Positions 11,182-48,248 of a DNA stretch of 64,000 nt are shown here, piece after piece. The stretch spans positions 1,426,001 through 1,490,000 of the forward strand of contig WWBZ02000007.1 in the NCBI GenBank assembly GCA_011503125.2, in the 5' to 3' direction. The stretch's first letter is position 1. Every line of letters begins with the position of its first letter. Both the position numbers and the translations under genes were made by a program. Source of the DNA: Botryosphaeria dothidea. Its lineage: Eukaryota > Ascomycota > Dothideomycetes > Botryosphaeriales > Botryosphaeriaceae. A model generated the notes under the pieces. It was not told where the DNA came from, searched no databases, and saw only the letters and a program-made list of their open reading frames with translations.

Positions 11182-11757
11182 ATGAAGGCCTCGTCCATCC
11201 TCGTCCTCCTCCCCGCCGTCCTCCTCCCCACCGGCGCCGCCGCCGCCGCCGCCACCTCCACGCCCGCCGCCGACCTCGTCCCGCGCGACGCTCCCCACAT
11301 CAGCAACCTGCTCGGCACCATCGCGCCGCGGCTGAGCGCGTTCAACATGACGCTCAACAGCTTCGGCGCGAAGCCGAGCCTCTTCAACGCGCTGTCGGTG
11401 CAGGCGGCGTCGGGCCAGATCCTCGACGCGCTGCACAACGTGGCCAGCGCGGCCAACGAGACGGACGCGCTCAACGGCGCCGGCTCCGCGCAGCTCGTCG
11501 AGGACGTCGAGCACCTGCGCCCGCACGTCGTCTCCGCGCTCGACAACGTCGTCGCCAAGAAGCCCGCGTTCGACGGCCTGCTGCTCAGCGCGCTCAACGG
11601 CGTCGTCGAGAAGGGCCTGCAGGACATGAAGCGCGGGCTGGCGCTCTTCTCCGAGGCCATCGCGATGAGGATGATGCCCCAGTTTGTGCCGCAGATGGAG
11701 CATGAGGTGGAGGAGATTACGTGTGTATTTGACAAGACTCTTGCGGTTTATGCTTGA
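11182..11757 (+). CDS. Secreted HsbA-type (hydrophobic surface-binding / galactomannoprotein) protein
   Basis: A single exon of 191 residues. Start at 11182 because it opens a clear signal peptide (residues 1-24, MKASSILVLLPAVLLPTGAA...). The mature part has the HsbA-like alternation of amphipathic helices, with GQILDALHNV, LVEDVEHLRPHVVSALDN and KKPAFDGLLLSALNGVVEKG. HsbA of Aspergillus binds hydrophobic surfaces and recruits hydrolases; other members are cell-wall galactomannoproteins. The two visible N-x-S/T sites suggest glycosylation. Codon use is strongly GC-rich compared with the neighbours, which produces long shadow frames on both strands. Extracellular or wall location is inferred. 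Confidence 0.8.
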   Translation: MKASSILVLLPAVLLPTGAAAAAATSTPAADLVPRDAPHISNLLGTIAPRLSAFNMTLNSFGAKPSLFNALSVQAASGQILDALHNVASAANETDALNGAGSAQLVEDVEHLRPHVVSALDNVVAKKPAFDGLLLSALNGVVEKGLQDMKRGLALFSEAIAMRMMPQFVPQMEHEVEEITCVFDKTLAVYA

Positions 11758-12113
11758 GCGGTTTGGATCGCCGGGGAGGTTTGCCTTGCAATTGTTTGGG
11801 GGGGGGATATCGGTGGGAGCACATGGTGCTGGGTCGAAGAGGCCGGCGGTGGAAGGGCTGAGTGAAATCAGTGGTCTATGTCATGGGGAGTTTACATAGT
11901 GGTAGTGATGTAGCGAATCCAGGATTCAAGAGACGTGCAAAACGCATTGCTTTTTTGCTGTGCAAAACTGATACCCTTGAAGCTATCATGTAGAGCAGTG
12001 CGGTCACTTTTTCTTCATCGCTCAACAACCCAAGCTTTCAGACACGCACAAGAACCCGCCACAACGCAATGCAAGCACTGCAAGAGCACAAAAAGATAAA
12101 AAGAATGAAGGCG

Positions 12114-12274
12114 TAGTCCCACCGGGGATCGAACCCGGGACCTTTCGCGCTTCTACAATATCTTCCGAAGAACGGTTGATGGTTGTGAAGCGAACGCTGC
12201 GAGGCGGATTAGAATGCGTTCGGATGAACTCGAGGTGTTGTGTTTACTCACTCATACCACTAGACCATAGGACT
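12114..12274 (-). tRNA. tRNA-Val (anticodon CAC) with two insertions
   Basis: Internal promoter boxes TGGTCTAGTGG (A box) and GGTTCGATCCC (B box) are present. Removing 12197-12251 (55 nt) and 12150-12183 (34 nt) leaves an exact 72-nt cloverleaf. The acceptor stem is AGTCCTA/TGGGACT with discriminator A. The D-stem is GTC/GAC and the anticodon stem TTCGC/GCGAA with loop TTCACAC. The T-stem is CCGGG/CCCGG. The core ACGTTCGC..TCACACGCGAA is that of eukaryotic tRNA-Val(CAC). The 34-nt insertion is at the canonical 37/38 intron site. The 55-nt insertion falls between D-stem positions 24 and 25, which is not a normal nuclear tRNA intron site. Confidence 0.9.
12197..12251 (-). other. Ectopic 55-nt intron-like insertion in the D-stem of tRNA-Val
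   Basis: On the minus strand it begins GTGAGT, holds CATTCTAATC about 10 nt before its end, and ends CGCAG, i.e. donor, branch site and acceptor of a fungal spliceosomal intron. Its ends can also pair (GTGAG with CTCGC) and it contains a GTTC-ATCC-GAAC hairpin. The junction is unambiguous, and the D-stem pairs only when it is removed. Confidence 0.75.
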
Positions 12275-18575: not shown

Positions 18576-19738
18576 CGTCAAGAAATTTTGCCGTTCTTTT
18601 TCTTAAAGGAGTGTGGTGATAAAACGCAAAGAAACCCGTCAAAAGAATGACAGCTAAAGAAATTGGGGAATGCGGCCAGTTTAATAAATACGCAGAGTCC
18701 ACGGAAGCATACTACATGAAGTCATCAACGCGTTAAGGCACCGGATGGGTGCGGATGAGAGCCACGGAACTGGTGACAATATGCCGCGAGCATCTCGAAT
18801 GGGGTAATTGCAAAAGCAAAGTATGCTGGTCTATTTTTGGTCGAGTTACCTGGCAGTGTACTAGTCAGTCTCCCACATTGAAGTCAGTTTAGGATTTTCC
18901 CCGGAACTTCGGAAGCTTAACATGTCAATGTCCAATATGCGGAGGAAGTCAAACTGCCGGGATAGAGTCGATGACGATACCTTCTTTCGATTACCTGACG
19001 TTCATGATCGAGCTTCTTCTGGCAGGAAGGTACAAAAGGTTATGATCCTCCGTGGTGATGAGTTTTGCGCGTACATTATAGTGGTTAAGCGTGATGGAAC
19101 ATTCAGAGTGAAGTTTCCCATACAATAGAACATTAGTATTGAGACATACTGACAGGGAATAAAGACCAGAAAGAAGCTCGTAATGCAGTGCGATCGAATT
19201 CGGGCTGAAAATTGGAGCACGCGGGAGCATAGCACCGAAGAGACTCCGCATAACAGAAGCCTCAGATGGAGATTGATTAAAGCAGAGATGAAGCGCATGT
19301 CGGTCAGAACTCCAGACGCAGAGCTGAAACTGGTCGGCGGTACTTCATATTACGCAATACGCAGCAGGGCGATTGCGAATGCCTTCGCTCGTGGCATATT
19401 GGTTCTTGGGCTACGCGGGACGAGTCGAAGGTGCTTGTTGCCTAGACCGAGCAAGAAGTGGCGCCCCAATATCCTGCTCTTGACTTCCAGCTCAATTGCC
19501 GACACCATCTCAATTCGTGAAGGCGTCGTCTGCGAGCAAGGAGTATTGTTGTACAAAAGGCGGGAGGGCGGATGCACTCTCGGAGGGGGTGGCGATTGAT
19601 TGCCCCACCGCGGCATGCCGATCGAAGGCCCCAGCTCCTGGAGGCACGCCGGAGCAAAACAGACGGGTGTGGAGTCATCTACCCACAATACTGCCAGAGC
19701 AAGACGAAGGCAAAAAGAGACGATTCCTCGGTTTGATG
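18576..19738. other. Intergenic
   Basis: 1.16 kb without a supportable gene between the LysM promoter and tRNA-Ser. Small frames (e.g. 19183-19599) show no recognisable product. Confidence 0.4.
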
Positions 19739-19850
19739 CGACACCTGTGAGATTCGAACTCACGCTCCCGAAGGAACTGGCTAATCGGCTTCCTCCACTG
19801 GGAGGTGAGAGTATAGCAGGCCAGCGCGTTAACCACTCCGCCAAAGTGCC
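19739..19850 (-). tRNA. tRNA-Ser (anticodon GCT) with 31-nt intron
   Basis: Acceptor stem GGCACTT/AGGTGTC with discriminator G, and A-box GGCGGAGTGG. The anticodon stem is CTGGC/GCCAG with loop CTGCTA-A. A long variable arm with TTCG loop is typical of Ser tRNAs. T-arm GTGAG-TTCGAAT-CTCAC. The intron occupies 19783-19813, directly 3' of position 37, the canonical site. Reads AGC/AGU codons. Confidence 0.93.
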
Positions 19851-24758: not shown

Positions 24759-26033
24759 ATGGTCAAGGCCTCCACTCTCCTCCTCGGCGCCGGCGCCGCC
24801 CTCGCTGCCGCCGCCCCCACTGAGCTCGCTGAGCGGGCCTCGTGCACCTTCACCGATGCCGCCTCTGCCATCAAGGGCAAGAGCTCCTGCACCAGCATCG
24901 TCCTGAACAACATCGCCGTCCCTGCCGGTACTACTCTGGATCTCACCAGCCTGAAGGACGGCACCACCGTCACCTTCCAGGGCACCACCTCCTTCGGCTA
25001 CAAGGAGTGGAGCGGTCCCCTCATCAGCGTCTCTGGCAGCAACATCAAAGTTGTCGGTGCTTCTGGCCATGTCATTGATGGCAACGGCGCCAAGTGGTGG
25101 GACGGCAAGGGCTCCAACGGCGGCAAGACCAAGCCCAAGTTCTTCTATGCCCACAGCCTCAAGGGCACGTCCAGCATCAAGGGCCTGAACGTCAAGAACA
25201 CCCCCGTCCAGGGCTTCAGCATCAACAGCTCATCTGGGTTGACTTTGGACTCTATCACCATCGACAACTCCGCGGGTGACGTCACGAATGGTGGCCACAA
25301 CACGGATGCTTTCGGTAAGCAGCAAACTATCTAATCATGATGCGCAACGCTAACAGCCGAACGGATGTGGGATCGAGCACGGGAATCACAATCTCTAACT
25401 CTGTCGTGAAGAATCAGGATGACTGCCTTGCTGTCAACTCTGGTAAGTTTTCATCCACCAACAGACACATCATTTCAGAACAACGGCTGACGCGAAGTAA
25501 GGCGAAAATATTGTCTTTTCTGGCAATACTTGTTCAGGCGGTCATGGTATTTCAATCGGCTCCGTCGGTGGCCGTTCTGACAACACAGTGAAGAACGTGA
25601 AAGTGTCGAACTGTTCGATCAAAGATTCCGATAACGGTATCCGCATCAAGACCGTCTCTGGCGCCACTGGCTCCGTCTCGGGTGTGAGCTACAGCGGTAT
25701 CACTCTCTCCAACATCGCCAAGTACGGTATCGTCATTGAGCAGGACTACGAGAACGGCTCCCCCACTGGCACTCCTACCACGGGTGTTCCGATCACGGAT
25801 CTGACTATCTCAAACGCAAGTTTACCATTTTCTTTATTCCAGAGGAAATTCAAAGCTAACATCAATGCTTTATACAGGTCAAGGGCAGCGTCGCTTCCAA
25901 GGCCACTGACGTCTACATCCTCTGCGGTAAGGGCAGCTGCTCCAACTGGAAGTGGTCTGGTGTCTCGATCACTGGCGGTCAGAAGAGCTCCAAGTGCTCC
26001 AACATCCCCAGCGGATCTGGCGCTTCTTGCTAG
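24759..26033 (+). CDS. GH28 endopolygalacturonase, intron 1 splice site abnormal
   Basis: Four exons (24759-25314, 25365-25442, 25502-25815, 25878-26033) give 367 residues, normal for the family. A signal peptide (about 1-19) and short pro-segment precede the mature start near ASC. The right-handed beta-helix carries all catalytic signatures: [25 protein letters not shown] and RIK. The enzyme hydrolyses alpha-1,4-galacturonan in pectin and is secreted. Intron 3 is GC-AG (GCAAGT donor). Intron 1 is problematic. To keep frame and the conserved D-V/I-GSSTG it must end at 25364, where the sequence reads CGG instead of CAG. The AG at 25355-25356 shifts the frame and meets a stop within about 15 codons. 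So the gene may be damaged, or one base is wrong in the assembly. Confidence 0.88.
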
Positions 26034-48132: not shown

Positions 48133-48233
48133 GCCGCTTTGCGGCATTTGGTCAACATTGAAACGATACAGAGAAGATTAGCATGGCCCCTGCACTAAGG
48201 ATGACACGCTATACAAAGAGAAGCTACCAGTTT
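48133..48233 (+). ncRNA. U6 spliceosomal snRNA
   Basis: The transcript starts with a short 5' hairpin (GCCGC-TTT-GCGGC). It continues with GGTCAACATTGAAACGATACAGAGAAG, which holds the invariant ACAGAGA box at 48168-48174, then GATTAGCATGGCCCCTGCAC for the U4-pairing/AGC region and AAGGATGACACGC for the internal stem-loop, and ends in eight T (48231-48238), the pol III terminator. These are the universally conserved U6 elements, which pair with the 5' splice site, U4 and U2. No intron interrupts it. The exact 5' end is inferred from the hairpin and TATA spacing. Confidence 0.93.
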
Positions 48234-48248
48234 TTTTTGCAGGTTGAG

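Follow-up and report, generated by a model that had tools for sequence, protein, structure and literature searches.

Introns of tRNA genes and introns of mRNA genes are taught as separate worlds that are served by separate enzymes. According to passages of PMC10484740, U6 of fission yeast is a Pol III transcript with an intron that is removed by the spliceosome, and, by an excerpt of PMC5832005, frequent interruption by an intron is known among small structured RNAs for fungal U3 and U6 alone. Spliceosomal introns have also been described in ascomycete rDNA (Cubero 2000 and Bhattacharya 2000, as cited in a passage of PMC11889510). For tRNA genes, the relevant part of PMC4090602 ascribes the non-canonical introns of archaea and Cyanidioschyzon merolae to the tRNA endonuclease and the bulge-helix-bulge motif and calls the mechanism in nucleomorphs unknown, and an excerpt of PMC8450103 describes the handling of non-canonical introns by tRNAscan-SE 2.0 for archaea. 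Our search of 5.39 million open-access papers, which included exact-phrase searching, brought up no paper, among those listed, that describes a tRNA gene with a spliceosomal intron.

A doubly interrupted tRNA-Val(CAC) gene

The window, which is the whole stretch of 64,000 nucleotides of Botryosphaeria dothidea DNA that was analysed, contains a tRNA-Val(CAC) gene of 161 nt. What remains once the 55 and 34 nt are subtracted is a 72-nt sequence that has an acceptor stem of 7 bp, a T-stem of 5 bp, and the anticodon CAC. The features of the gene, together with their counterparts in a paralog on contig C1, are as follows.

12114..12274, minus strand: tRNA-Val(CAC) gene with three exons and two introns; Val(CAC) by ARAGORN after both inserts are taken out
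12252..12274, minus strand: exon 1, tRNA nt 1-24; 22 of 23 nt are the same in the C1 paralog
12197..12251, minus strand: putative U2-type (mRNA-type) intron of 55 nt that separates nt 24 from nt 25 in the D-stem, reading GTGAGT...CTAAT...CAG; C1 has an intron at the same site
12246..12251, minus strand: putative 5' splice site GTGAGT, from the sequence; GTAAGT in the C1 paralog
12208..12212, minus strand: putative branch site CTAAT within CATTCTAAT, conserved in C1, with the predicted branch A at 12209
12197..12199, minus strand: putative 3' splice site CAG, from the sequence; CAG in C1 too
12184..12196, minus strand: exon 2, tRNA nt 25-37, including the anticodon CAC; identical in C1
12150..12183, minus strand: ordinary tRNA intron of 34 nt at 37/38; the C1 counterpart is 31 nt and diverged
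12114..12149, minus strand: exon 3, tRNA nt 38-73; the C1 counterpart is split at 60/61 by a third intron
12256..12267, minus strand: presumed A box TGGTCTAGTGGT, intact, before the D-stem intron
12125..12135, minus strand: presumed B box GGTTCGATCCC, intact
12090..12102, minus strand: two T5 runs downstream of the gene, probably terminators for Pol III

Based on the internal Pol III promoter consensus, we take TGGTCTAGTGGT to be the A box and GGTTCGATCCC to be the B box. The features of a Pol III tRNA gene that are present here are then an A box, a B box, a T-run, and an intact mature cloverleaf.

The RNAfold minimum for the spliced sequences is not the cloverleaf and, for this reason, ARAGORN was used to call them. 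No tRNA was called in the unmodified 161-nt gene. With the 55 nt removed, ARAGORN called a tRNA-Val(CAC) with a 34-nt intron, and with both inserts removed it called a 72-nt tRNA-Val(CAC); removal of the 34 nt alone gave a Gly(ACC) with an intron. An earlier note, made from the letters of the window alone, had proposed that two blocks (12197-12251, 55 nt, and 12150-12183, 34 nt) interrupt the 161-nt gene and that their removal restores a 72-nt tRNA, and our analysis agrees with it on each of these points. The placement of the 34-nt block at the canonical 37/38 site was confirmed from the sequence and by ARAGORN, and the placement of the 55-nt block within the D-stem, at 24/25, was confirmed with a single possible boundary that permits no sliding. 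The window gene was absent from the matches to the Rfam tRNA model; this carries little weight by itself because an ordinary single-intron Glu(CTC) gene (L077) escapes the model as well.

An HsbA-like gene (window 11182-11757, plus strand) adjoins the tRNA gene in convergent orientation. Its protein is identical at 153 of 160 positions to a Botryosphaeria dothidea protein and, used as a query, it revealed no related loci in viral contigs.

Other interrupted tRNA genes in the genome

The window gene is found twice, with no difference, in the 51.7-Mb assembly, once on the contig of the window (C3) and once on contig C12. A comparison of the fetched C12 stretches with 62 kb of the window gave 0 mismatches and gaps only, and from these sequences C3 looks like the second haplotype of C12 or an assembly duplicate. 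The C3 and C12 copies were counted as one locus and are not independent.

When the gene and its flanks were used as the query, one further locus was found, C1:2008324-2008470, with 75% identity. Its mature tRNA is identical to that of the window at 71 of 72 nt, the exception being a T to C change in the D-loop, and three inserts have to be taken out to obtain it: 53 nt from the D-stem, 31 nt from 37/38, and 61 nt from the T-arm. The 53-nt insert, GTAAGT...CATTCTAAT...CAG, occupies the same site as the D-stem insert of the window. The 61-nt insert, GTAAGT...CTGAC...CTAG, lies between nt 60 and 61, and the window T-arm, which is without the 61 nt, is an exact empty site with no sliding. The C1 locus would carry one ordinary tRNA intron besides two of the mRNA type. 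ARAGORN called the C1 gene Val(CAC) only when all three inserts were out; with the two GT-AG introns removed and the 37/38 intron left in place, the call was Leu(CAA). The T-arm intron of C1 starts inside the end of the B box and changes its last bases (L071, minus strand, near 1500), which may leave this copy with a weaker Pol III promoter and reduce its transcription.

Between the D-stem introns of the window and C1, the donor, CATTCTAAT, and CAG have been kept and the remainder has drifted. The exons are identical at 71 of 72 positions as compared to 56 of 82 aligned positions in the two shared introns (p 1.9e-7). Global alignment flatters introns: the D-stem pair is identical at 36 positions, where shuffles gave 28.7 on average and at most 37 in 500, and the 37/38 pair at 20, where shuffles gave 17.3 on average and at most 23. 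Within 20 kb of C1 around the Val gene, no further similarity to the window was detected. Since the exons are nearly identical while the introns and flanks have diverged, the duplication is, by this measure, an old one, with selection probably maintaining the exons. Such selection is difficult to account for unless the inserts are taken out.

The C1 gene as a query revealed no further copy in the genome. The 72-nt mature Val sequence retrieved the C3 and C12 copies and no uninterrupted gene; the same query missed the C1 copy, so its power to pick up short exons is low. The D-stem intron is present in every Val(CAC) copy found (C3, C12, and C1), and an empty site for it was not found in this genome. 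The earlier note had considered an intact Val(CAC) gene set elsewhere, with the window copy silent, and this is not what the searches showed, as the one further Val(CAC) locus that they revealed shares the D-stem intron and has one more. A place on C2 (L015) that ARAGORN called Val(CAC) was read as Leu(CAA) from its long variable arm and its loop CTCAAG and was not counted. Patterns for the Val(CAC) anticodon loop and B box matched 2 and 11 places which, beyond the known Val copies, are other tRNAs or no tRNA. A pattern of the exact Val D-arm plus donor gave 0 matches in the viral collection and 0 in the prokaryotic collection.

By chance, the Val(CAC) pattern search turned up a tRNA-Glu(TTC) gene on contig C58. 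This gene carries a 57-nt insert, GTAAGT...CATTCTAAC...CAG, with the branch sequence CTAAC, in the anticodon stem at 30/31, as well as a 15-nt intron at 37/38. The insert boundary has one alternative, shifted by one base, and the GT-AG choice is given here. ARAGORN called the gene Ser(AGA) as it stands and Glu(TTC) without the 57 nt. A paralog at C12:3030489, with a counterpart on C3, has the same mature tRNA (72/72) and an ordinary 37/38 intron and is without the 57 nt, which makes it an exact empty site. Beyond the earlier note, we add the GT-AG ends and the branch site as well as the further copies and the Glu gene, which bring such introns to three loci and three positions. Because they are found at two positions in addition to the D-stem (the Val T-arm and the Glu anticodon stem), the gain of mRNA-type introns by tRNA genes of this fungus was probably not a single event.

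We examined 59 nuclear tRNA places, which are not the full tRNA set, consisting of 45 from Rfam, 1 Gln(CTG), 2 Glu(TTC), 7 Glu(CTC), and the 4 intron-bearing places. The Rfam tRNA search had returned 61 matches, of which 16 on C14 and C26 were taken as mitochondrial by their clustering and left out. Candidate mRNA-type introns are present in at least 4 of the 59 places, that is, at three loci, at three positions, and in two tRNA families, with Val(CAC) affected at both loci found; this count is a lower bound, as tRNAs of plain structure are more readily detected by the tools used. The 45 nuclear Rfam places include none with such an insert, in a search that is biased against interrupted genes. 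ARAGORN, which permits introns in the anticodon loop only, called 44 of these 45 places, some under the wrong name (L015 and L016), and drew four (two Lys and two Trp) with a long variable arm that we read as a 37/38 intron. Searches for Lys and Glu(CTC) gave 7 and 9 places, 15 of the 16 being called by ARAGORN and none with an extra intron.

Several other tRNA places are recorded here for their own sake. L016 and L066 were read as Gly(GCC) genes with long introns of ∼66 nt near 37/38 and unlike sequences, L016 being called Thr by ARAGORN. L023 (C58:2826308) is a truncated tRNA-Lys copy with no ARAGORN call and is probably a pseudogene. The window also contains a tRNA-Ser(GCT) gene (19738-19850, minus strand) with an intron of ∼31 nt in the anticodon loop, and the same gene is present in C12.

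The U6 snRNA gene of the window (48133-48235, plus strand) matches the Rfam model over its full length and is apparently intronless; U6 introns occur in other fungi. Two U3 matches in this genome (Rfam) are 217-218 nt long and apparently have no intron either, so small RNAs do not seem to be generally affected.

Splicing signals within the inserts

With its boundaries fixed by the tRNA, the window insert reads GTGAGT...CATTCTAAT...CAG, and the presumed branch A lies 12 nt upstream of its 3' end. None of 200,000 mononucleotide shuffles of the 55-nt insert reached the strict signature GTRAGT...CTRAY...YAG, and 3 of 200,000 reached a relaxed form. Across both strands of the window, the strict signature was present in 2 of 127,890 stretches of 55 nt, one of which is the insert itself. 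A scan of the window for signature matches of up to 85 nt gave 12, as compared to a mean of 3.6 and a maximum of 7 in 30 local shuffles. The 11 other matches span 47-69 nt, which places the 55-nt tRNA insert in the middle of the range.

All four inserts, in the order window D-stem, C1 D-stem, C1 T-arm, and C58 Glu, have a GTRAGT donor (GTGAGT, GTAAGT, GTAAGT, and GTAAGT), an AG end (CAG, CAG, TAG, and CAG), and a CTRAY branch site before the acceptor (CTAAT, CTAAT, CTGAC, and CTAAC). For comparison, we assembled 16 other introns, consisting of 5 that were placed in two protein genes of the window and the 11 signature matches, of which ∼3.6 are expected by chance. The protein genes encode a cytochrome P450 and an endopolygalacturonase, the latter identified by the match of its first exon to PDB chains. 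Their 5 introns resemble the inserts in their donors and end in AG, with CTRAC at the branch site; one is a GC-AG case and one has a weaker donor, GTACCA. A likely GC-AG intron in the endopolygalacturonase gene (window 25816-25877, plus strand) reads GCAAGT...CTAAC...CAG by eye. The inserts measure 55, 53, 61, and 57 nt as compared to 42-69 nt in the 16 others, 11 of which are signature matches only. The trinucleotide TTT is present in none of the four tRNA-gene introns and in 11 of the 16 other introns or intron-like matches (Fisher p 0.026, with small numbers); among shuffles of the four introns, TTT was missing from all four in 2,335 of 20,000.

Other intron types were considered and set aside. 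The U12-type consensus used here consists of the donor ATATCC(T/C)TT and the branch sequence TCCTTAAC, and both are absent from all four introns as read by eye. The extra inserts are not canonical tRNA introns, as they sit at 24/25, 60/61, and 30/31 and not at 37/38, where the other intron of each gene is located. An introner copy was likewise rejected, since whole-gene DNA searches, which score the best candidates only, gave 3, 6, and 3 matches, each of them located at a tRNA gene. BLAST did not match the Val introns to the Glu intron. The sequence CATTCTAAY (window 12208-12216, minus strand) is common to both Val D-stem introns and the C58 Glu intron, which is otherwise unlike them. It occurs once in the window, with 0.61 occurrences expected, and may reflect either chance or a longer branch-site motif that is preferred in tRNA genes.

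Proposed maturation and comparison with known systems

Judged from these signals, the 55-nt insert is very probably a U2-type spliceosomal intron, whichever polymerase makes the precursor. The extra inserts are most likely spliceosomal introns in Pol III genes that would be taken out before the endonuclease removes the 37/38 intron, and maturation of tRNA-Val(CAC) appears to need two splicing machines. In the proposed pathway, Pol III would make one precursor from the intact A and B boxes, ending at the T5 terminator. The major spliceosome in the nucleus would then recognise GUGAGU, CUAAU, and CAG and release the 55 nt as a lariat, a step for which U6 is a precedent. This removal would restore the D-stem and the tRNA fold that is needed for end processing and for the endonuclease, after which the tRNA splicing endonuclease and tRNA ligase would remove the 34-nt intron at 37/38. 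In yeast, the tRNA endonuclease lies outside the nucleus, and such a location would place the spliceosome first.

A variant of this proposal keeps the spliceosome and changes the transcript, such that splicing acts on a Pol II read-through RNA and not on the Pol III precursor. As general knowledge has it, the normal substrates of the spliceosome are Pol II transcripts, and yet the A box, the B box, and the T5 runs are all in place at the window gene. T runs are stops for Pol III, and the absence of TTT from the four tRNA-gene introns would therefore fit transcription by Pol III, if weakly. Furthermore, U6 demonstrates that Pol III transcripts can be spliced, according to a passage of PMC10484740. 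We consider the Pol II variant unlikely; its probability forms part of that given to the spliceosomal reading as a whole.

A second alternative is that the inserts are ectopic introns of the tRNA type, for which a tRNA splicing endonuclease of relaxed specificity would recognise and cut a bulge-helix-bulge, the mechanism of Crenarchaeota and Cyanidioschyzon. An excerpt of PMC4090602 documents tRNA introns outside 37/38 in archaea, C. merolae, and nucleomorphs, also alongside a 37/38 intron, and the window D-stem insert can form 7 of the 10 possible pairs of the motif. However, 1,023 of 5,000 shuffles of that insert reached 7 pairs as well, and the C1 D-stem, C1 T-arm, and Glu inserts form 5, 4, and 6 of 10 pairs, equalled by 4,974, 4,976, and 2,560 of 5,000 shuffles. 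Four 37/38 introns used as controls formed 8, 8, 8, and 7 of 10 pairs, numbers that 327 to 2,282 of 5,000 shuffles also reached, which makes this a weak test. The endonuclease reading leaves the GT-AG ends and the branch site in all four inserts unexplained. In addition, the yeast enzyme is stated, in a passage of PMC4033280, to cut solely at 37/38, and an endonuclease limited in this way should not remove the 55 nt. We regard this alternative as improbable, and the evidence points away from the archaeal and algal introns that the earlier note had mentioned beside it, as the insert has spliceosomal signals and, by the same weak test, no convincing bulge-helix-bulge.

It is equally improbable, in our estimate, that the genes are dead, with ordinary insertions in tRNAs that are never made. 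ARAGORN and Rfam are both blind to the window gene, and an excerpt of PMC4090602 treats insertions in the D- or T-arm of one among many synonymous eukaryotic tRNA genes as a supposed mark of a pseudogene. Against decay stand the single difference in 72 nt between the window and C1 exons, whose introns and flanks have diverged, the Glu mature sequence that matches its paralog at 72 of 72 positions, and insert boundaries that restore the tRNA to the base; a search with little power for short exons also revealed no uninterrupted Val(CAC) gene. An assembly error or chimaera, for which one could cite that the C3 and C12 copies are not independent and are identical over the fetched stretch save for indels, can be dismissed given that the diverged C1 locus and the separate C58 Glu locus have the same kind of insert with exact ends.

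Returning to the spliceosomal reading, we lean towards a broader proposal: all tRNA-Val(CAC) would pass through the spliceosome and then the endonuclease, its supply, and with it GUG decoding beyond Val(TAC) wobble, would be tied to the spliceosome, and Pol III transcripts would be continuing targets of intron gain. If true, a tRNA that needs both machines would show that the spliceosome can process tRNA precursors, and the order of splicing would be fixed, with the D-stem restored before the endonuclease can measure its substrate. Because paralogs with and without the intron are present within one genome, these genes also offer a clean place to study intron gain. Finally, tRNA finders can miss or misname such genes, as ARAGORN did when it called no Val and turned Glu into Ser, and more of them may therefore lie unseen in fungal genomes.

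The earlier note had judged a doubly interrupted ascomycete tRNA with an intron outside 37/38 to be new or very rare, and its great rarity stands as far as the literature that we found. The type of intron is known; as far as could be found, its tRNA host and a maturation by two machines are not. The canonical 37/38 introns are the second intron of these same genes, and the extra inserts differ from them in position, size, and signals. Non-canonical introns of archaea, C. merolae, and nucleomorphs also lie outside 37/38, sometimes together with a 37/38 intron, and 30/31 occurs as a position in archaea (excerpt of PMC4090602); the inserts described here differ from those introns in carrying spliceosomal signals. 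Ascomycete rDNA introns are likewise spliceosomal and interrupt a non-coding RNA of Pezizomycotina in its conserved parts (passage of PMC11889510), but their host is rRNA, which is made by Pol I. The introns of fungal U3 snoRNA are also normal spliceosomal introns in a structured non-coding RNA, although U3 is not a tRNA (excerpt of PMC5832005). A further close parallel is fungal U6 snRNA, in Schizosaccharomyces and others, where the same U2-type intron is found in a short structured Pol III RNA (passage of PMC10484740). As compared to U6, the host here is a tRNA that has a second intron for another enzyme, and the putative spliceosomal introns are found at three positions and in two tRNA families.
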